Virus record (IMG/VR): IMGVR_UViG_3300009159_000053
Location: 22,893-86,892 of that record
DNA length: 64,000 nt
Origin: a virus
Direction: 5' to 3' (one strand)
The notes below the pieces were generated by a model. The model was not told where the DNA came from. It saw only the letters and a list, made by a program, of their open reading frames with translations, and did no database searches. The position numbers and the translations under genes are program-made. Positions 40,559 through 51,457 of this stretch are shown here, in pieces (the first letter of the stretch is position 1; each line of letters opens with the position of its first letter).

Positions 40559-41851
40559 TTAGCCTTTATATCTTACAACAATGATACCTGAACCACCAGC
40601 AGATTGATCACTACCTCCACCACCGCCAGTATTTGATTTTCCATTGGCTACAGATCCACCTCCACCAGCGCCACCAGTTCCATATGTGGCGTTACTTGGA
40701 GCGCCACCGCCACCTCCTGCAAAATAAGTGTTTCCTGAAACAGTTTCTCCAGCACCAATAGAGCCTATAGAATTTATAAGACCACTTGTTCTACCAATGC
40801 CACCATTGGCATCTGTTGCTGCTGCTCCAGCGCCTCCACCACCGCCAGCCCTTTGACTTAAATTGTAGGTATAACCATTATTTCCTTGACCAACGGTTCC
40901 AGTACCAGCGGTTCCTGTTTGTCCACCACCTCCACCAGAGCCACCATTCTTACCATTACCCCCGCTAACACCGCCACCGCCACCGCCACCGCCAATAGTT
41001 TCTGTTAAAGATCCAAATTGTGAGTTACTGCCATTATTTCCAGGGATATTAGTTACAACTCCAGTTGCTCCTGCACCAACAGTGCAAGTATAACTGTTAC
41101 CACTTGATAAAGACTGTAATGCAAACTCTAGTACTCCACCACCGCCACCGCCTGCGCCAAAGTATGATCCAGCACCACCACCACCTGCAACTACCAGTAC
41201 GTCAGCAGTTAATGGTTGAGAAGGAACAAATGCACCAGTAGAGTTAAACACATGGTAAACATAAGTACCATCAAAGGATATGTTTCCACCTGTGGCTTTT
41301 ATTGAGTTGCCTGCTGTCTGCCGTGCATTTTTTATGCCGTAGAGTGTGAAAGTTGAATGTTGGGCAAAGGCTGTTTGTCCTGCGGTAAGAATAATCTCTG
41401 TTACTGGATCTGTTTTTGTTGTTGAGACACCGCCTAGCATTAGTCTTAATGTAGTATCGTTATACTCAGGCACAGCCTCATAAATAATACTTTTGGCATT
41501 ATTTAACGTGTAATTTGGTATATCTACGTTAACGCTTGCAAAGGTACTTGCGGTAGAACCGCTGCCATTTAACCAGTATATAGGCTGTGATGTCGCTACT
41601 ACAGAATTAGTAGTGGAGTACGCCGCAGTTCCGTTTGCACCAAGTATTCTTTCAGTCCAGGTGTATGACGTAGAGCCAAAACTAAAACTTATAGTTCCGA
41701 GTTCGCTGCTGCCACCGACGCCACCCGTTGTTCTTCCAGATACAGATATTTTTAGGTCCGTGTATGTTTGCGGTATATTAGAAAACGTCACACTTGCAGT
41801 ACTAGTACTTAATGTAGTAGTAGCCAACTTTGTCATTGTTTCTAGACTCAT
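40559..41851 (-). CDS. Glycine-rich tail fibre protein (paralogue 3)
   Basis: The beta-domain (ASVTFSNIPQTYTDLKISVS, ends LYGIKN), the strand YVYHVFNSTGAFVPSQP and the Gly-rich domain ending GGSGIIVVRYKG show family membership. It overlaps the next paralogue by an ATGA junction. Paralogues 3 and 4 with the 203-aa gene repeat the layout of paralogues 1, 2 and the 199-aa gene. Confidence 0.8.
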   Translation of the reverse strand: MSLETMTKLATTTLSTSTASVTFSNIPQTYTDLKISVSGRTTGGVGGSSELGTISFSFGSTSYTWTERILGANGTAAYSTTNSVVATSQPIYWLNGSGSTASTFASVNVDIPNYTLNNAKSIIYEAVPEYNDTTLRLMLGGVSTTKTDPVTEIILTAGQTAFAQHSTFTLYGIKNARQTAGNSIKATGGNISFDGTYVYHVFNSTGAFVPSQPLTADVLVVAGGGGAGSYFGAGGGGGGVLEFALQSLSSGNSYTCTVGAGATGVVTNIPGNNGSNSQFGSLTETIGGGGGGGGVSGGNGKNGGSGGGGGQTGTAGTGTVGQGNNGYTYNLSQRAGGGGGAGAAATDANGGIGRTSGLINSIGSIGAGETVSGNTYFAGGGGGAPSNATYGTGGAGGGGSVANGKSNTGGGGGSDQSAGGSGIIVVRYKG

Positions 41852-43194
41852 ACTGCATACCTCACAATTACAATACCTGAAGCACCATTAGATCCCTCAC
41901 GACCATTGACTGAAACATACGCTCCTCCGCCACCGCCACCACCGCCATTAATTGTTGGACTTGTTGGATTTACGTTTCCACTTGAAGTTTGTTGTCCACC
42001 AGTTCCAGCATTTGTACCAGCAGTTCCTGCTGTACCAGTAGAACCACTAACATAAATACCGCCAGAACCTCCAGAACCAAAATGTGTTAAGCCTGAAATA
42101 GTTAGTCCAGAAAATATATTTGATAAGGCATATCCCTGTCCGCCAGCACCTGAAACACGAGTAGATGCATTTGCGGCTCCACCAGCAGAGGTTGCACCTC
42201 CACCTCCACCACCAGCATATCTTTCAGGTCCGCTACCTACTGCAAAACCTGCACCACCAATATTTGTATTAGAACCTGAAGCGCTACCGCCAGCACGGCC
42301 TAAAGCACCACCGCCACCTGAGCCACCAGTTTGTCCAGCCTCATTAGCAGCAGATGCATCACCAGTTCCACCGCCACCTCCACCTAAAGATGATGTATCA
42401 CTTGCAAAAGTTGTAGTTACACCATTTGCACCTGCAGATGAGGTGCTGGTTGCTCTAGCGCCACCGCCACCAATAGTAACTGTTTTAGTAACTCCAGAGG
42501 CAATTGATAGACTACTAAGGATATCTACTTCACCACCGCCACCGCCACCTGCGTTATTCCATCCTCCGCCACCGCCACCGCCAACAGATAGAACATCGCA
42601 AGTTAATGCCTTACTTGTAACAAGAGAACCTGAAGCGGTAAAAGTGTGATACCAATAATTACCATCAGATGATATATTCCCGCCAGTTGCTTTTGGTACT
42701 CCTACACCAATTCCATATAGATCAAAGGTTGAGCCTGCTGCCCAACTACCTGTATATGGTGCAATTGAAATAATGTTAATTGCGCTAGTTGAACGCCATA
42801 AACCAACAGCGCTTCTTAAAGATACTGAAGGCGCATGACTTTTTGACAAAACTGTTTTGAAAGTAGTGCTATTAGAATAATTTATAAATTGTAACACTGT
42901 ATTTCCAGTAGATGTGCCACTTGTTGATATCAATACATTCAGATAACTTGTACCTGTATCTCTATAACTTGCTGCTGATGTTCCATTGCCATAGATTTCC
43001 GTCATAGAATAGTTATTACCAGTATCTAACGAGTTATTACCAACTCTAATAAGACTACCAACCTCGCCACCACTAGCAGTATTTCCTGTTACTACAACTA
43101 TCAAATCAGTATAATCCTGCGGTATACCAGAAAAAAGAACACTACTAGCAGAAGTGCTTAAGACTATTGATTGTATTGGTTTGTAGGTTGCCAT
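41848..43194 (-). CDS. Glycine-rich tail fibre protein (paralogue 4)
   Basis: N-terminal beta-domain (SVLFSGIPQDYTDLIVVVTG) ending LYGIGVG, strand NYWYHTFTASGSLV, then Gly-rich runs and the end GASGIVIVRYAV. The variable part differs from paralogue 2 (SNIFSGLTISGLTHFG). The DNA is rich in ACC/GCC repeats on the plus strand, which give long spurious frames there. Confidence 0.8.
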   Translation of the reverse strand: MATYKPIQSIVLSTSASSVLFSGIPQDYTDLIVVVTGNTASGGEVGSLIRVGNNSLDTGNNYSMTEIYGNGTSAASYRDTGTSYLNVLISTSGTSTGNTVLQFINYSNSTTFKTVLSKSHAPSVSLRSAVGLWRSTSAINIISIAPYTGSWAAGSTFDLYGIGVGVPKATGGNISSDGNYWYHTFTASGSLVTSKALTCDVLSVGGGGGGGWNNAGGGGGGEVDILSSLSIASGVTKTVTIGGGGARATSTSSAGANGVTTTFASDTSSLGGGGGGTGDASAANEAGQTGGSGGGGALGRAGGSASGSNTNIGGAGFAVGSGPERYAGGGGGGATSAGGAANASTRVSGAGGQGYALSNIFSGLTISGLTHFGSGGSGGIYVSGSTGTAGTAGTNAGTGGQQTSSGNVNPTSPTINGGGGGGGGAYVSVNGREGSNGASGIVIVRYAV

Positions 43195-43836: not shown

Positions 43837-44181
43837 TTAAGAAATTTCAGAACCGAATGCGGAGAAGGACATATTTGCAGATGATGCATACACTGAAACG
43901 ATGTCCCCATTAGTACCATTATGATCTAAGGTAAGTCCTAATGTTAGTGCAATTGTATCATTTGCTGCAATTGGTGTGTCATAGGCAATGTAGTGTTGTG
44001 CTGCTAATGATGCTGAATATTGACGAACTGCAATGCGGAATGTTCCTGCAGTTGAGGCTTGGTTACAAACGGTGATTGTAGAAACAACAGTATCAGTTCC
44101 TGAAGTTGGCACTGTATAGAGTGTGGTTGCTGTTGTTGCTGCTGGGTTTGATTGCCCTAGCGTTTTGTATACTGTTGGCAT
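43837..44181 (-). CDS. Small structural protein (114 aa), fibre region
   Basis: I start at the ATG at 44181 (MPTVYKTLGQ), with GAAGGAG upstream. The product is a beta-sandwich-like, Ser/Thr/Ala-rich protein (TLYTVPTSGTDTVVSTITVC, then SVYASSANMSFSAFG) of the type often found next to fibre genes. Its promoter region is shared with the opposite-strand cassette. Probably virion-associated. Confidence 0.65.
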   Translation of the reverse strand: MPTVYKTLGQSNPAATTATTLYTVPTSGTDTVVSTITVCNQASTAGTFRIAVRQYSASLAAQHYIAYDTPIAANDTIALTLGLTLDHNGTNGDIVSVYASSANMSFSAFGSEIS

Positions 44182-44250
44182 GAGACTCCTTCGAAGGGGA
44201 TAAGCATAGGTTAGTTGGTACAAGAATACTATGTGGGCTAAAGTGTCCCT
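44182..44250. promoter_or_regulatory. Divergent intergenic region
   Basis: This is the only divergent junction in the window. Both the leftward fibre genes and the rightward sugar cassette should start here. I see no good -35/-10 pair; the best on the plus strand is TTGGTA with TACTAT, but the 8-base spacing is wrong. The GAAGGAG of the minus gene is clear. Confidence 0.35.
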
Positions 44251-45252
44251 ATGAATTTGGTGCAAAAATCGGTTTCTCAAGGGGGCAAATTAGCGCCCCT
44301 AATTCTACCTCATTCAACCTCATACGGTATGGGTCTAATGAATCCATCTATCTTTATTGATCATGATGGCGATATATTAGTAAATATTCGTCACGTAAAT
44401 TACACGCTCTATCACTCTGAAAAAGATCAAAGATTTTTTAGTCCTTGGGGACCTCTCTCTTATCTACATCCTGAAAGAGACCAACGACTAGTTACGACCA
44501 ATTACCTAGGCCGTCTTGATAAGGATTACAATTTAATTAATTTTACTAAAGTTGATTATTCTAAATTTGATGTTCCACCTATCTGGGAGTTTGTTGGTGA
44601 AGAAGATGTCCGCATTACTCAGTGGGATGGTAACTACTACCTGATCGGGGTACGGCGTGATACCACGCCCAATGGGCAAGGTCGCATGGAGTACTCCAAA
44701 ATAGAATTAGATAAAACCAATTGGACAGCCAAAGAGGTACAACGAGTTCGTATCCCACCTCCTGTAGATGTTAATTCTTATTGTGAAAAGAATTGGATGC
44801 CTATCCTTGATATGCCATATCATTTTGTTAAGTGGGCTATGCCTACCGAAGTCGTTTGGGCTGATCCTGATAAGTCTGAATGTAAGCAGATACAAGTAAA
44901 AGAAACTCCGCCGATTTCTCCTGATCAACGTGGTGGCACTAACATCGTTGCATGGGGCGATTATTATATTGCATTTACTCATGAGGTTAGATTGTGGAAA
45001 AATTATTTAAATCAAAAAGACTCTACATATCGTCATCGAATGATTGTGTGGGATAAAGAGTTTAACTTTGTTGGCGTGACAAATCCATTTGCATTTTTAG
45101 ATACACCTATTGAGTTCTGTGTTGGCGCAGCAATTCTTAAAGGAAAATTATTACTAACATTTGGTGTTCAAGATAACTGTGCATTTCTTCTTGAGGTTCC
45201 TAAGAAGGTTGTGAACGGGATAATTACGGAGGCCATGTCTTATGGACGTTAA
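44251..45252 (+). CDS. GH130-like five-bladed propeller protein
   Basis: The sequence has propeller-blade motifs typical of GH130/GH43-like proteins: MNPSIFID (30-37), GEEDVRITQWDGNYYLIG (116-133), KNWMPI and GGTNIVAWGDYYIAFTHEV. GH130 enzymes are mannoside phosphorylases; versions in viral glycan clusters may bind or process sugar. The ATG has no clear ribosome site, so a GTG two codons later could be the start. It is the first gene on the plus strand. Confidence 0.7.
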   Translation: MNLVQKSVSQGGKLAPLILPHSTSYGMGLMNPSIFIDHDGDILVNIRHVNYTLYHSEKDQRFFSPWGPLSYLHPERDQRLVTTNYLGRLDKDYNLINFTKVDYSKFDVPPIWEFVGEEDVRITQWDGNYYLIGVRRDTTPNGQGRMEYSKIELDKTNWTAKEVQRVRIPPPVDVNSYCEKNWMPILDMPYHFVKWAMPTEVVWADPDKSECKQIQVKETPPISPDQRGGTNIVAWGDYYIAFTHEVRLWKNYLNQKDSTYRHRMIVWDKEFNFVGVTNPFAFLDTPIEFCVGAAILKGKLLLTFGVQDNCAFLLEVPKKVVNGIITEAMSYGR

Positions 45253-45805
45253 AGAGTTGGCTTTAAAACTGGCTGAAAATCCTAATGATCCTCAGATTAA
45301 CTTTGATTTAGCATCTGCTTATGAAGAGCAGTTACAGTACGCATCTGCAGCAGGGTTTTACTTAAGAGCCGCTGAACACGGGTATAAAACCCACCCATTA
45401 ATTACCTACACATCTCTGTTAAAGATGGCTCTATGTTGGGGTGCTCAAGGAGATAGAAACCGCACCGTGTACAACAACATTATGCAGGCTATTGCTTATT
45501 TACCAAATAGACCAGAGGCATACTTCCTGCTCTGTAGAATTAAAGAACGAAATAAGGAGTATCAAGAATGCTATACCTATGCTGAACTAGGTCTGCTATT
45601 TGCTACTACTACCTATAATCAGCCACTGCCAGGATATGTTGAATACAACGGCTCATACTGCCTACTATTTGAGAAGGCTGTTGCTAGTTGGTGGATTGGG
45701 CGTAGAGATGAAAGTAAGATTCTGTTTGAACATCTGTTAGATAATTATGAGATGTCTCAAGAGTATGTGAATGGATGTCTTAACAATATGAAGTTGTTTA
45801 ACTAA
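45242..45805 (+). CDS. TPR-repeat protein (187 aa)
   Basis: Helical repeats are visible, e.g. NPNDPQINFDLASAYEEQLQ and RPEAYFLLCRIKERNKEYQE, then the last helix pair (WWIGRRDESKILFEHLLDNY). TPR proteins often sit with glycosyltransferases, either as substrates adaptors or fused to them. The start overlaps the propeller gene by 11 bases. The catalytic role is probably none. Confidence 0.75.
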   Translation: MDVKELALKLAENPNDPQINFDLASAYEEQLQYASAAGFYLRAAEHGYKTHPLITYTSLLKMALCWGAQGDRNRTVYNNIMQAIAYLPNRPEAYFLLCRIKERNKEYQECYTYAELGLLFATTTYNQPLPGYVEYNGSYCLLFEKAVASWWIGRRDESKILFEHLLDNYEMSQEYVNGCLNNMKLFN

Positions 45806-46338
45806 TGTTTCCTAATTGGTTTAAAGATGTAGAGAAGTACTTCAGACATGTACCAAGTGTTCCACTTCGTGCACTGCAGATCGGCACCTACACAGGAGAC
45901 GCCACGCAGTGGCTACTTACTAATCGAGAGATTGAATATCTAGATGATGTAGATACATGGGAAGGCAGTGAAGAGACCGCCCATGAAGATTTAGATTTTG
46001 TTTCAGTAGAGGCTTACTATGATTCAAGATTCCCAAAGGATGGAAGAATCTTAAAGCACAAGATGACCAGTGATGACTTCTTTATTCGTAACGCTAGTTC
46101 ATATAACTTCATATACATAGATGGCGACCACACCGCTCTGCAGACCGCTATGGATGGCTTAAATGGCTTCAGGCACCTGGAATCAGGTGGGGTGATGGCA
46201 TTTGATGATTACCTCTGGAACTACGGCGGAGGAGAGTACAGAGAGCCAAAGAGGGGCGTGGATTGCGTTCTTAATCTCTGTAAAGGCGAGTACACAATGA
46301 TTGAATCTGGATATCAAGTATGGATTGAGAAGTGCTAG
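45805..46338 (+). CDS. Class I SAM-dependent methyltransferase
   Basis: Motif I is LQIGTYTGDAT (24-34). YIDGDHT (104-110) and GGVMAFDDYLW (128-138) are the hallmarks of the Methyltransf_24 group, often in surface-sugar or antibiotic clusters. It is coupled to the TPR gene (TAATG). It may methylate a sugar or other acceptor made or transferred by the cassette. Confidence 0.82.
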   Translation: MFPNWFKDVEKYFRHVPSVPLRALQIGTYTGDATQWLLTNREIEYLDDVDTWEGSEETAHEDLDFVSVEAYYDSRFPKDGRILKHKMTSDDFFIRNASSYNFIYIDGDHTALQTAMDGLNGFRHLESGGVMAFDDYLWNYGGGEYREPKRGVDCVLNLCKGEYTMIESGYQVWIEKC

Positions 46339-47063
46339 ATAACGCCTGCTTTGAGGTCTTTCATACTGATACTGGAAATGAACTAAGAAACAAATCTTAT
46401 GAGGGCATTTTAAACTCTATGTCCTTCTTGCCACGCCTTGGCTCTGAGACTATGTATCTAAATACAGCAGAGAAGGCTGAAGCATTTATTAATCAAACCC
46501 CAGAGTTTAAAGTAAATACGGTTACTGATTTCTGTAAGCCAGGAGAGACCTTCCCTCCAAGTTCTGGTGTTGTGGGAGTTTGGGCAAGTACTTACTTGGC
46601 ATATAAAAAGTTTTTAGAGTCTGATAAAAAGGTATTAATATTGTTTGAAGATGACATAGTCATAAGTAAAAACTTTAAAGGTATTGCAGAGTTATACATG
46701 AGCGAACTAATGCCTATCTGGGATTTCTTTTCTTTTTTTGTACCTGATGATTCACTCTTTGCATATAATGAATCTGAGCATGATTTAAGTGAAGAGCACA
46801 TTTGCAAGTCTTATCAGCAGTGGTCTTGTGCAGGATATGCTGTAAGTAGACGTGGGGCAGAAAAAGCAATTGCAGATATTAAATTACAAGGAATTAACTG
46901 CCCTATAGATTGGTATATATTTAACTTTAGAATGAAGCAAGAAAAAAATCAAATGCGATTTAATACCTTTACAGTAAAACCACAAATATATAAACCTATA
47001 AAGTTTTTATCAGAAGCGGCTCAACACAGCCAAATTCACAACGGCAGTACAGAACTACTTTAG
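46332..47063 (+). CDS. Glycosyltransferase family 25-like protein
   Basis: The features of GT25 (LPS-type galactosyl or glucosyltransferases) are present: GVVGVWASTYLAYKKFLES (79-97), then LILFEDDIVIS with the acidic triplet (106-108), and SCAGYAVSRRGAEKAI later. The start is GTG overlapping the methyltransferase stop. Its stop is immediately followed by the stop of the convergent collagen-like gene, with no base between. The sugar acceptor is unknown. Confidence 0.78.
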   Translation: MLDNACFEVFHTDTGNELRNKSYEGILNSMSFLPRLGSETMYLNTAEKAEAFINQTPEFKVNTVTDFCKPGETFPPSSGVVGVWASTYLAYKKFLESDKKVLILFEDDIVISKNFKGIAELYMSELMPIWDFFSFFVPDDSLFAYNESEHDLSEEHICKSYQQWSCAGYAVSRRGAEKAIADIKLQGINCPIDWYIFNFRMKQEKNQMRFNTFTVKPQIYKPIKFLSEAAQHSQIHNGSTELL

Positions 47064-48416
47064 TTACATTCCACCGTACAACAACACTGTAGTTGTTGGA
47101 TCAGCAGCAACTTGTCCAATAGTTCCTTGTGTACCTTGAGTACCGTTAGTTCCGCCAATACCTTGGGTACCTAGAGTACCTTGAGTACCTTGAGTACCTT
47201 GTGTTCCTTGTGAACCTACCGTACCTTGGGATCCATTAGATCCTACAAAACCAGCAGTACCTTGAGTACCTTGGGCTCCATTAGATCCTACAAAACCAGC
47301 AGTACCTTGAGTACCAACACTTCCCTGAGCACCAACAGTGCCTTGAGCACCTGTGTCACCCTTGTCACCAGTACGAGCAAAGGTAATTAAAATATCATCA
47401 GAGTTAGATAATGTTCCATTTCCAGAAACATAAGCAATATTAACAGTAAACCAACCTGTGTTATCTGTAAGAGAAGAAATTGTATAAAGTTTAAATACAC
47501 TGGTATCTAATTTCTTTGATACACGGAAGTGTCCTTTAATTGTTGAAGTAGAATCATCAATTGTTTGTAAGAAGGAAGAGATGTCTGTAGAATCATCATT
47601 ACTTGCATCAATGTACATAGCAGTTGCTGTTGTAGGAGATGCGTTAAATCTTAAGTTTCCAGTTCCTGGATCAGCATTAGTAGTACTTGTTAAAAAAGTG
47701 TAATCAAAGGTGGCTCCACCAAAACTACCAACAGTACCTTGGGTACCTAGAGTTCCTTGAGTACCTGTAGTTCCTTGAGAACCTACAGTTCCTTGTGCAC
47801 CAACAGTACCTTGGGATCCAGTAGAACCATTTAAACCTTGAGTTCCTTGTACTCCTTGGGTTCCCTGAGTTCCTTGAGTTCCCTGAGTTCCTTGTGTACC
47901 TTGTGTACCAACACTTCCTTGTGTTCCTGTAGTTCCTTGAGCACCTAAAGTTCCCTGTGTACCTTGAGTTCCCTGTGTACCTTGAGTTCCTGTTGGTCCT
48001 TGTAATCCCTGTGTACCTTGAACGCCTTGAGCACCTGTAGTTCCCTGTGCACCAGTAGTACCTTGAACTTGAGTTACAGTTGTATTAATTACCTGTGTTC
48101 CAGCATCGTAGGTAAATGTAATACCTGTTTTACTGCCGCTATTTAAGGCATTTGCAATACGTGTATTTGTAGCATATTTATTTACAGTACCTTCAGAAAG
48201 ATCGTCTGTAGTGCTTAATGCTGAACCTGCGATAAGTGCAGCAATTGCATCCTCATCAATAAAGTATGGCAAAGTAGCATAAGCAGTACTGCCATCACCA
48301 ATTTTAAATGTCTTATTTGTAGTGTCGTAGCAAACTTCACCAGCATATGGCGTTGGATTATTTGCAGTCCATTGACCAGCGGTTCCTCGTCGTACTTGAA
48401 TGCGTACTGATGCCAT
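47064..48416 (-). CDS. Collagen-like fibre protein with Mtd-type N-terminus (450 aa)
   Basis: Residues 1-60 have the fibre-base pattern RIQVRRGTAGQW, YAGEVCYDTTNKTFKIGDGS. Two collagen-like tracts (about 117-230 and 354-435) repeat GTQ/GAQ triplets. A 120-residue beta module stands between them ([15 protein letters not shown] as its mark). The protein is likely a long trimeric fibre. It is convergent with the GT25-like gene. Confidence 0.85.
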   Translation of the reverse strand: MASVRIQVRRGTAGQWTANNPTPYAGEVCYDTTNKTFKIGDGSTAYATLPYFIDEDAIAALIAGSALSTTDDLSEGTVNKYATNTRIANALNSGSKTGITFTYDAGTQVINTTVTQVQGTTGAQGTTGAQGVQGTQGLQGPTGTQGTQGTQGTQGTLGAQGTTGTQGSVGTQGTQGTQGTQGTQGTQGVQGTQGLNGSTGSQGTVGAQGTVGSQGTTGTQGTLGTQGTVGSFGGATFDYTFLTSTTNADPGTGNLRFNASPTTATAMYIDASNDDSTDISSFLQTIDDSTSTIKGHFRVSKKLDTSVFKLYTISSLTDNTGWFTVNIAYVSGNGTLSNSDDILITFARTGDKGDTGAQGTVGAQGSVGTQGTAGFVGSNGAQGTQGTAGFVGSNGSQGTVGSQGTQGTQGTQGTLGTQGIGGTNGTQGTQGTIGQVAADPTTTVLLYGGM

Positions 48417-48700: not shown

Positions 48701-51457
48701 TTAAGCCTTTACTACGACCCGATAAGTTTCACCTGAAGTAGGAGCAACTGCAAATCCGATAGTTACAGCAGATGTAGTTGATGCAATTACATCAGTAACT
48801 ACTTCGTTGTAAGTAGCGTCTTGAACAGTTACTAACACATCTCGTGTTCCAAGGCTGTGTGTAATTGTAAATGTTGTTGCTGAGTATGGAGACACTGGAG
48901 TAATAGTCTCTGCGTAAGTTCCAAGTTGACCAGAGATACCTTGAGTTCCAAGAGTTCCTTGGGTTCCTGTTGTACCTTGAGAACCAACAGTTCCTTGTGC
49001 ACCAGTCGTACCCTGTACACCAGTAGCACCGTCTAAGTTAATTGACCATGCAGAGTATGTTCCTGAACCTCTAACGTCATTAACGTTTACAACAAGTGTG
49101 TCAGTGTTTGATGTGTAACTTACTACAGTTGCAGACATGTTGTTGTTTACATCGTAAGCAACTACTACGTCTTGACCTACTGAGTATGAAAGATTTGGAT
49201 CAACTAGTACAAAACTTACGTTGTTTGCTACTGCAATTGAACGTGAAGTTGTAGAGGTAGTCTTGTAGCGATCAGATTGTCCTTGAACACCTTGAGCACC
49301 AAGGGTACCTTGAGTACCTTGAGCACCTAAAGTTCCTTGGGTACCTTGAGCACCTACGGTTCCTTGAGATCCAACTGTGCCTTGAGCACCTACTGTGCCT
49401 TGAGCACCGACAGTTCCTTGAGCACCGACAGTTCCTTGAGCACCTACAGTACCCTGTGCACCAACAGTTCCTTGTGAACCAACTGTGCCTTGGCTACCAA
49501 CAGTACCTTGAGTTCCATCAGTACCTTGAGTACCTTGGGCTCCTAGTGTTCCTTGAACGCCTTGAGTTCCTTGAGAACCGACAGTTCCTTGAGCACCAAC
49601 TGTACCCTGTGTACCTTGAGCGCCAGTTGTACCTTGGGCTCCAAGAGTACCTTGGGTTCCTTGGCTACCAACTGTACCTTGTACGCCTTGTGCACCTGTT
49701 GTACCCTGAGCACCAGTATCACCCTTGTCACCAACTCGTGCAAATGTTAAATATGCTGGATCAGTGTTACCAATTGATAGAGAACCAGAAACGTATGCAA
49801 TTGGAACCGTAAAATATGCACCAGAGTTCTCATTGTGAGTACCAACAATCTGGAAGAACGCATAGTTAGCATTAGGCTCGTCTGCACCTGATATCTTAAT
49901 TGTTCCTTTGATGCCTGATGTTGAGTCATCAATAGTTTGTAAGAATGAAGTAATGTTAACTGCATTTCCATCGATATTATCAATGTAAAGTGCAGTTGCC
50001 GAAGCAATTGTTCCATTGTTAAATTTAAAATTACCTGAACCTGGGTCTGTGTTTGAGGTACTAGTTAGGAAATCGTAGTTGAAAGTTTCTCCACCAAATG
50101 TACCTGTAGCACCTTGAGTTCCTAATGTTCCTTGTGAACCAACAGTACCTTGAGCACCAACAGTTCCTTGAGCACCTAATGTACCTTGAGTTCCTTGAGT
50201 ACCAACTGTACCTTGTACGCCTTGAGATCCAACAGTTCCTTGTGTACCTTGTGTGCCGACACTTCCTTGTACACCTTGAGCACCTACAGTACCTTGAGTA
50301 CCTTGGGCTCCTACAGTTCCTTGAGAACCTACAGCACCTTGAGCACCAAGGGTACCTTGGCTACCAACGGTTCCTTGAGATCCAATTGTTCCCTGTGAAC
50401 CAACGGTACCTTGAGTACCTTGAGAACCAACAGTACCTTGTGATCCAACGGTACCTTGGGTTCCTTGTGAGCCAACTGTGCCTTGTACTCCTTGAGAACC
50501 AGTTGTTCCCTGGGTTCCTTGAGCACCAACATCACCTGTACGAGCAAATGTAAATAAAAGTTCTTCGCCATTGGTAAATGTTCCGTTACCAGATACGTAA
50601 GCAACTTCTATATCAAACCAATTTGGGGCTGAGTCTGTAAGACCAGCAATTGTGTAAAGTGCAAAGACAGATGTATCAAATTTCTTAGATACTTTTACGT
50701 GACCTTTAATTGTTGATGTTGAATCATCAATAGTCTGTAAGAAATTAGAAATATCGTAGTTACCATCAGAAGGATTATCATCTAATGCAATGTGTGAAAC
50801 TAAAGTTAAGTTAGCATTGTTTAGACGAGCAAAGTTGTCGCCTGGGTCTGACATAGTTGTGTTATTACTATATGTATACTCAACAGTAATACCACCAAAT
50901 GAACCTTCAGTACCTTGAGTACCCTGAGTACCATCAAGACCTTGTGCACCAGCAGTTCCTTGAGTTCCTTGTGAACCTAAAGTTCCTTGAGTACCTTGTG
51001 AACCTAAAGTTCCTTGAGTACCTTGTGAACCTAGAGTTCCTTGAGTTCCTTGTGAACCAACAGTTCCTTGTGCACCTAAGGTACCTTGTGTACCTTGAGC
51101 ACCATTAGAACCGTTTAAACCTTGTGCACCAGCAGTTCCTTGGGAACCTACTGTGCCTTGTGAGCCAACTGCTCCTTGTGAGCCAACAGTACCTTGACTA
51201 CCTACCGCACCTTGTGTTCCAAGAGTTCCCTGTGCACCAAGGGTACCTTGTGTACCTTGTGCTCCAGTAGTTCCTTGCGAACCTTGACTTGCATTAATCC
51301 ATGCAGTGCCATTCCATGTACGTAGATATAATAATACTGTGTCAAAATAAACTTGACCAACTACGGGAGATGCTGGGGCGGTCGCTAAGTTTTGTATTCT
51401 TGCATTTTGTAATTCTAATTTGTTTAAATCAATCGGGGTTAAAAACTTACGGGCCAT
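48701..51457 (-). CDS. Long collagen-like tail or head fibre protein (918 aa)
   Basis: The attachment domain is at 1-58. Four collagen-like tracts follow at about 60-184, 309-450, 579-727 and 812-842. Two copies of a 120-residue beta module (both with [14 protein letters not shown]) and a smaller beta domain stand between them. The C-terminal 70 residues ([19 protein letters not shown]) resemble the tip-like 104-aa gene upstream. AAGGAG precedes the ATG. It should form a long triple helix. Confidence 0.85.
49275..51290. repeat. Collagen-like triplet repeat DNA
   Basis: Three dense blocks (about 49275-49720, 50105-50530, 50905-51275) consist of 9-base units coding for Gly-X-X triplets, mostly GTQ, GAQ, GSQ, GTV. 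Unit variants such as cttgagtac and cttgtgcac are scattered. The plus strand shows long false frames here. Confidence 0.85.

Follow-up and report, generated by a model that had tools for sequence, protein, structure and literature searches.

A phage gene cassette beside collagen-like fiber genes that may glycosylate and methylate the phage's own fibers

We examined a 64,000-nucleotide stretch of viral DNA, here called the window (bases 22893-86892 of the 86,892-base IMG/VR record IMGVR_UViG_3300009159_000053), in which 4 overlapping plus-strand open reading frames (ORFs) for a GH130-like protein, a TPR-like protein, a Methyltransf_24 enzyme and a GT25 glycosyltransferase lie inside the fiber gene region (Table 1). 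We lean towards the view that the enzymes of this cassette attach sugars and methyl groups to the phage's own fibers. New here are the fixed pairing of the GH130-like and TPR-like genes, the adjacency of the GT25 gene to collagen-like genes, including in another backbone, and a leaderless-type box of the first gene that is unlike the late genes.

Association with collagen-like fiber genes

The loci compared comprised 118 close loci, which were dereplicated and found by searches with a cassette gene, and at least 71 distant loci; the best 80 loci were retained per IMG/VR scan. A GT25 gene was present at 86 of the close loci and was the final ORF on the contig at 11 of them; at 68 of the remaining 75, it was followed by an ORF for a collagen-like protein. 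This neighbor was convergent with the GT25 gene in 64 cases and located on the same strand in 4, which shows that the opposite strand, stressed in an earlier note on this DNA, is not an essential trait of the arrangement. Collagen runs with 10 or more triplets were found within 3 kb at 83 of the 118 close and 25 of the 71 distant loci, compared with 1 of 59 tail-sheath control loci, which were drawn from the window's own lineage only.

Within 3 kb, 71 close loci had both a GT25-like gene and collagen, 16 had the GT25-like gene only, 12 had collagen only and 19 had neither (Fisher p 2e-5), and the corresponding numbers within 5 kb were 61, 11, 14 and 7 (p 0.11), the loci being related in both comparisons. 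A set of 20 long records, which are related fragments (8 from the cassette-gene scans and 12 from the sheath scan), included 12 with both a GH130-like gene and a Pfam collagen match, 2 with the GH130-like gene only (one of them cut by the record end), 6 with neither, and none with collagen only.

Four loci, L031, L033, L036, and L037, share the 4 genes with the window at 64% to 80% identity, and their record fragments of 20 to 79 kb contained no match to the tail sheath of the window. When 19 window proteins were compared with these records, with the hits of 2 Gly-rich queries filtered out, only the 4 cassette proteins matched, plus a small fiber-adjacent protein in L031 and L036. The lack of matches to the sheath and the other window proteins points to a different phage backbone, in which the 4 genes are again found together and beside collagen.

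A conserved core with exchangeable partners

The GH130-like gene has the TPR-like gene as its constant partner. Among 202 GH130-like ORFs in the dereplicated loci, the next ORF was TPR-like in 177, the 2 were fused in 2, the TPR-like gene was located within 5 ORFs in 13 and was absent in 7, and the contig ended in 3; leaving these 3 aside, 179 of 199 GH130-like genes were next to or fused with their partner. It was also noted that a 204-amino-acid ORF, judged by eye to be HNH endonuclease-like, is located between the 2 genes at L152:7139-7753, possibly after invasion by a homing gene. Two GH130-like genes per record were seen in the records behind L229, L255, and L258 and also at locus L078, and at L180 the gene is divided into 2 ORFs of 216 and 70 amino acids, possibly because of a frameshift or a sequencing error.

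The order GH130-TPR-Methyltransf_24-GT25 was found at 67 of the 118 close loci, while 14 were cut by contig ends and 9 had other arrangements; searches with a cassette gene thus recovered the 4 genes as a set, for which the earlier note had suggested a homology search, in other phages. The variants included an extra ORF of 270 to 289 amino acids before the GT25 gene (12 of 118), such an ORF in place of the Methyltransf_24 gene (2 of 118), and an ORF of 210 to 259 amino acids after the TPR-like gene (14 of 118). The former was identified as ATP-grasp in 2 representatives scanned, and the latter as an FkbM methyltransferase in the single representative scanned. The neighbors at other loci included genes for GT2, GT17, radical SAM with SPASM, DUF6445, and 2OG-Fe(II) oxygenase proteins. 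Furthermore, a GH130-like part is followed by GT17 and Methyltransf_24 parts within a single ORF at L211, the third gene at L190 encodes a CTP-transferase plus mannose-6-phosphate isomerase-type protein, and L192 contains an FkbM-GT25 fusion. Because the sugar-enzyme neighbors vary around the fixed pair, the cassette reads as a constant GH130-TPR core joined by exchangeable, putative tailoring enzymes (methyltransferases, glycosyltransferases, ATP-grasp, and radical-SAM proteins). At L053 and L057, an ORF of ATP-grasp size replaces the Methyltransf_24 gene, and at L053, L056, and L057 a minus-strand ORF of 178 amino acids, methyltransferase-like by eye, is located between the GT25 gene and the collagen-like gene. 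L191:29-2977, upstream of the GH130-like gene, contains 3 ORFs that are radical SAM-like by eye.

Relatives were numerous in IMG/VR, where the GH130-like scan gave at least 600 matching stretches, all 600 listed encoding a relative, and the distant GH130-like scan also gave at least 600, with a relative encoded by 577 of the 600 matches listed. The corresponding numbers were 127 of 135 for GT25 and 323 of 327 for the methyltransferase; the stretches outnumber the distinct genes or phages, and several may fall in one gene. A GH130-like relative was found in only 3 of 50,697 deposited phage records, 2 of which also had a TPR-like gene, and a plasmid search gave no match. In GTDB, relatives were located on 5 contigs, among which L190, L191, and L192 resemble phage contigs by eye and L188 was too short to judge; a single genome of 198 from one phylum matched, via the L188 contig. 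The GH130-like genes of L190, L191, and L192 were assigned to bacterial or archaeal bins, and these contigs, as judged by eye, are seemingly phages binned with cells.

The same layout exists in a cyanophage family. In DSL-LC02, the collagen-like and fiber genes are on one strand and the GH130-like, TPR-FkbM-radical-SAM, and DUF6445 genes on the other, with a tail fiber gene behind them. DSL-LC02 is itself a metagenome assembly and is described in the Dishui Lake paper as having a GDP-mannose 4,6-dehydratase (PMC10611076); the main text of that paper makes no mention of a mannosyltransferase, FkbM or collagen. Among the papers listed on phages and GH130, none concerned this cassette as judged by title.

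Predicted folds and active-site motifs

The first protein scored 17.8 bits against the Pfam GH130 profile, for which the curated cut-off is 26, and is therefore labeled GH130-like rather than filed as GH130; profile scans with Pfam and NCBIfam were by themselves insufficient to secure the label. An AlphaFold2 (AF2) model (pLDDT 88.6, pTM 0.90) had its best fold matches among GH130-type mannoside phosphorylases (Foldseek E 4.4e-9; VIA Z 23.6, root-mean-square deviation 3.4, 284 residues aligned). The next VIA matches were the Leishmania MPT mannosyltransferases of family GT108, with Z about 18, and GH43 rows, also about 18. The sole sequence matches of the GH130-like profile in the PDB, Photorhabdus lectins, were rejected as short propeller matches with repeat-level similarity.

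Residues N31, R47, E118, D119, K180, R227, H244, and D308 were retained in at least 99% of 163 aligned phage GH130-like sequences. The mannose site is reported to consist of Asn28, Asp92, and Asp281 in the GH130 enzyme Teth514_1788, where Glu91 precedes the Asp (PMC4264767), and of Asn73, Asp131, and Asp344 in BF0772 (PMC4264767, PMC4599007). The spacing of the 2 Asp residues is 189 residues both in the phage family (D119/D308) and in Teth514_1788 (Asp92/Asp281). An hhalign comparison with about 30 cellular GH130 proteins, which is one profile pair and not a database search, gave a global probability of 94.7 and a local E of 3.8e-6, and paired N31, R47, E118-D119-R121, and D308 with the cellular FNP, EDPR, and AD(S/T) motifs. 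Significance was reached only with deep alignments on both sides, the comparison of the profile with the single protein L358 being not significant. Residues R136, K180, K194, R227, and H244 are also highly conserved, in a part where the residue-by-residue alignment to the phosphate-binding and Glu-pair positions of GH130 is unreliable. The phage clade has conserved YCEKNW and RRD motifs of its own. Together, the predicted fold and the profile comparison uphold a GH130-type assignment for the modeled protein.

The second protein was below the Pfam cut-offs for TPR_17 (23.3 of 24.4 bits) and TPR_19 (23.0 of 25), and is therefore named TPR-like. The third matched Methyltransf_24 with E 9.2e-12 and 46.2 bits, above the cut-off of 26.3, and many positions were conserved among 73 aligned rows. 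The fourth matched Glyco_transf_25 with E 9.3e-8 and 32.6 bits, above the cut-off of 24, and its E106-D107-D108 motif was invariant across the 21 sequences of alignment A3. The model of this protein (pLDDT 81.1) has a GT-A fold, and its best fold match was the human collagen galactosyltransferase COLGALT1 (VIA Z 19.0, root-mean-square deviation 3.3, 213 residues aligned), with weaker matches to mimivirus R655 (Z 16.2) and a bacterial GT25 (Z 14.5). The enzyme labels of the earlier note thus stand for Methyltransf_24 and GT25, and for GH130 through fold and profile in spite of the Pfam score, whereas the TPR label falls below its cut-off.

A putative leaderless-type promoter

The first cassette gene is preceded by a putative promoter of the leaderless type. 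A TANNNT box located about 12 bases before the start, counted from the first T, is described as a mark of leaderless genes, which are common in Actinobacteria (PMC3160421, PMC3898074). Such a box, ending 5 to 7 bases before the GH130-like start, was present in 69 of 72 distinct upstream sequences of the close group, compared with 5.4 expected from base shuffles, and Shine-Dalgarno (SD)-like runs were present in 10 of the 72. The upstream sequences are related, yet the box persists where the remaining upstream sequence differs. At the other cassette starts, the box was found in 0 of 77 for the TPR-like gene, 4 of 56 for Methyltransf_24, and 0 of 50 for GT25. The late genes had the box in 1 of 56 (collagen), 1 of 42 (divergent fiber gene), and 0 of 29 (sheath) cases, and SD-like runs in 53 of 56, 38 of 42, and 29 of 29, respectively. 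In the distant group, 8 of 74 GH130-like upstream sequences had the box, which is the chance level. The cassette promoter was missing from the output of a plain sigma-70 scan, and a loose scan with alternative starts placed the box at 5 of 87 window ORFs, including the first gene of the cassette. These patterns suggest that the cassette is transcribed on its own, as a leaderless unit embedded in the fiber region.

Layout of the locus and probable host

The successive cassette ORFs overlap by 11, 1, and 7 bases, and all other plus-strand ORFs of at least 100 amino acids in the window overlap minus-strand ORFs, so that the cassette is the sole plus-strand coding block there; a plus-strand block is present elsewhere in the record, outside the window. 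The cassette is located between Gly-rich fiber genes (40559-43194) and the collagen-like fiber genes, and the GT25 stop abuts the stop of the first collagen-like ORF at 47063/47064. The description in the earlier note of tightly coupled genes, the only ones on the plus strand of the window, between these 2 kinds of fiber genes was thereby confirmed. The ATG start chosen for the divergent fiber-related ORF, at 44181, leaves a 69-base spacer before the cassette that contains the promoter. The Gly-X-Y runs of the 2 collagen-like ORFs have Thr in 53% of the X positions (217 triplets), and the Mtd_N domain forms the N-terminus of the first of them. The highest 19-residue hydropathy value in the 4 cassette proteins was 1.42, and no transmembrane-like segment was present.

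Table 1. Coordinates of the cassette and its neighbors in the window
Feature	Position	Strand	Details
Leaderless-type promoter (putative)	44215-44250	+	TTGGTA (44215-44220), 18 bases, TAAAGT (44239-44244), 6 bases, ATG at 44251
GH130-like ORF	44251-45252	+	333 amino acids, ATG start; modeled GH130-fold enzyme, probable mannoside phosphorylase or mannosyltransferase
TPR-like ORF	45242-45805	+	Partner of GH130-like gene; proposed docking or adaptor subunit
Methyltransf_24 ORF	45805-46338	+	Predicted class-I S-adenosylmethionine (SAM) methyltransferase; proposed sugar O-methyltransferase
GT25 glycosyltransferase ORF	46332-47063	+	GTG start
Gly-rich fiber or adhesin, alternative acceptor	40559-41851	-	ORF translation
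Gly-rich fiber or adhesin, alternative acceptor	41848-43194	-	ORF translation
Small fiber-related protein, divergent neighbor	43837-44181	-	phrog_693 tail fiber 7.3e-8; start picked by eye
Collagen-like fiber protein with Mtd_N domain, candidate acceptor	47064-48416	-	Pfam Collagen 3.6e-29, Mtd_N 1.8e-14
Second collagen-like fiber protein, candidate acceptor	48701-51457	-	918 amino acids; long Gly-X-Y runs in ORF translation

The large terminase protein (TerL) and PolA of the phage were 53% and 37% to 38% identical, respectively, to those of BRock-type Streptomyces phages, and the record contains 2 WhiB genes, WhiB having been suggested as a key indicator of actinophages (PMC10202952). Based on these 2 sets of observations, the host is probably an actinobacterium, and the cassette is probably carried by an actinobacterial myophage. 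Actinobacterial hosts lack lipopolysaccharide (LPS), which weakens an LPS reading of the GT25 enzyme, LPS being one of the known GT25 acceptors named in the earlier note. In the 40 kb examined of BRock itself, the nearest named relative by TerL, neither a Gly-X-Y run of 6 repeats nor an annotated glycosyltransferase was present. In addition, open frames that by eye resemble parts of a tyrosine recombinase are located on facing stretch ends outside the window (L193:11486-12000 and L194:2-823), and the phage may therefore be temperate.

Proposed function and alternatives

From the computed gene identities, folds, motifs, fixed pair, fiber neighborhood, recurrence in another backbone, and promoter box, we infer an activity, a donor sugar, an acceptor, an order of steps, and a timing as follows. 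The GT25 enzyme would move a sugar from a nucleotide sugar onto the fiber, most likely onto hydroxyls of the collagen-like shafts, whose Gly-X-Y repeats are rich in Thr (GTQ-type). The GH130-fold enzyme would then add, or trim, a β-mannosyl-type residue with the use of a sugar phosphate or nucleotide sugar, and the TPR-like partner may dock it onto the fiber or the other enzymes. The Methyltransf_24 enzyme would cap the glycan by O-methylation. With their own leaderless-type promoter, apart from the late fiber operon, the enzymes could be made independently of the fibers. A broader version of this scheme is speculative and on the whole rather unlikely: that the cassette represents a pathway for phage collagen glycosylation independent of those in animals and giant viruses, in which a COLGALT-like GT25 primes Thr in GTQ shafts, the GH130-fold and TPR-like proteins extend the glycan with β-mannose, and the methyltransferase caps it, with a dedicated leaderless promoter and a constant core whose exchangeable tailoring enzymes diversify the fiber coat in many uncultured phages.

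Several observations weigh against modification of the collagen-like fibers. Because the close loci are related, 68 of 75 does not represent 75 independent events. At the distant loci, where only 25 of 71 had collagen within 3 kb, both a GT25-like gene and collagen were found within 5 kb in 5 cases, GT25-like only in 18, collagen only in 25, and neither in 19 (Fisher p 0.009), and within 3 kb the numbers were 4, 17, 21, and 29 (p 0.10). Of the 20 record fragments from distant loci, 5 gave no collagen match. In the Synechococcus phage S-SCSM2R, which carries the GH130-TPR pair, the nearest Gly-X-Y ORF is about 8 kb away, and DSL-LC01, a 25% relative, had no Gly-X-Y run in the 18 kb examined. 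Conversely, Thr-bearing Gly-X-Y runs occur without a detected GH130-like gene in S-CAM7 (27 triplets) and HTVC010P (6 triplets). By sequence, the GT25 protein is equally near to COLGALT1 (9.4e-8) and bacterial GT25 (1.1e-7), and an animal-type hydroxylysine chemistry is unlikely because the collagen-like proteins are almost devoid of Lys. Within Gly-X-Y, where COLGALT-type enzymes would have their hydroxylysine acceptor, Lys accounts for about 1% of the Y positions and is outside the 8 leading residues at X; PF13640, the sole 2OG-Fe(II) oxygenase family searched as a sign of animal-like hydroxylation, had no match in the record.

In the long distant records, the nearest collagen, by eye among the matches listed, was about 1 to 5 kb away in some and 8 to 29 kb away in others. 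As a predictor of collagen across all lineages, GT25 was rejected, since the GT25-like genes of the distant group go with less collagen. Thr-rich collagen was unusable as a mark of the cassette, the control triplets being too few. Because distant loci often have no collagen nearby, the general claim is limited to a location in a fiber or host-recognition region, and collagen is our best guess of the acceptor only for the GT25-type cassette of the window lineage. The suggestion of the earlier note that a sugar cassette could act on the fibers is thus partly supported, by that lineage, in which the coupling to fiber genes, the COLGALT1-like fold, and the collagen-like neighbor coincide, and is weakened for the distant core. 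Relatives without nearby collagen, which that note had named as adverse when combined with strong links to host surface-polymer genes, do exist, but strong ties to host-polymer genes were not observed, and the complete GT25 type keeps its place beside collagen.

The distant loci bear directly on an alternative that we regard as less likely but as a serious competitor: that the enzymes alter a glycan of the host envelope during infection, for superinfection exclusion or receptor masking, and are located in the fiber region because host-recognition genes cluster there. The core is found in distant, partly T4-like phages with no collagen nearby, and a separate promoter would permit action ahead of the late genes. 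However, the probable actinobacterial host of the window phage has no LPS, the 4 proteins include no membrane protein or hydrophobic segment, and the GT25 type is located directly beside collagen even in another backbone. The authors of a study on pelagimyophages do interpret the glycosyltransferases of the host recognition cluster in this manner (PMC7029224).

The retained sugar-site residues and the position among fiber genes would also suit cleavage of host β-mannosides by the GH130-fold protein itself, as a secreted or virion-borne receptor-destroying enzyme or depolymerase, with the other genes as helpers. This is improbable for a protein of 333 amino acids with no added virion-attachment domain and a fixed overlap with the TPR-like gene, and the presence of GT17 and methyltransferase parts downstream of a GH130-like part in one ORF at L211 points to biosynthesis. 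Phage glycosyltransferases have also been proposed as modifiers of DNA (PMC10202952), but a role of the cassette in modifying DNA or small molecules, such as a nucleotide or metabolite, unrelated to surfaces, is very improbable given its location among fibers in several lineages and its partners of the FkbM, TylF-like, GT17, GT2, and ATP-grasp types.

If modification of the phage's own fibers is correct, the sugar decoration of tail fibers would be common in uncultured phages rather than confined to a few mycobacteriophages, with a bearing on receptor binding, fiber stability, and recognition by other organisms. The comparison further delineates a GH130-fold family that is specific to phages and has conserved active-site motifs, rare in deposited phage records yet abundant in the IMG/VR scans, and makes phage collagen glycosylation directly testable.

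Comparison with known systems

The closest precedent is provided by the virion glycosylation loci of mycobacteriophages. In those of cluster O, an O-methyltransferase and 3 glycosyltransferases behind it are reported to modify the capsid and tail tube (PMC11600133, citing Freeman et al. 2023). Both systems are operons with glycosyltransferase and methyltransferase genes in actinophages, with virion proteins as acceptors, which for the window cassette is a proposal only. The window cassette differs in its GH130-TPR core, GT25 transferase, location in the fiber region, and leaderless-type promoter.

The GH130-like protein resembles the GH130 mannoside phosphorylases and Leishmania MPT in fold and in the Asn, Glu-Asp, and Asp motifs of the mannose site, whereas the phage clade scores below the Pfam GH130 cut-off and has its own YCEKNW and RRD motifs. 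With the collagen glycosyltransferases of animals and mimivirus, among which R699 has been identified as such an enzyme (PMC9546862), the cassette shares a GT25-type fold (COLGALT1, R655) and a neighboring collagen-like protein. It differs in the near absence of Lys from Gly-X-Y, the lack of a PF13640 match in the record, and the additional GH130-like, TPR-like, and methyltransferase genes.

The host recognition cluster of pelagimyophages and cyanomyophages likewise has glycosyltransferases in a tail-fiber island, but is interpreted as modifying host LPS, and the sections of that paper that describe it make no mention of the GH130-TPR pair (PMC7029224). BclA of Bacillus spores is also described as a glycosylated bacterial collagen-like protein, but it is a spore protein and is modified by other enzymes (PMC8968730).

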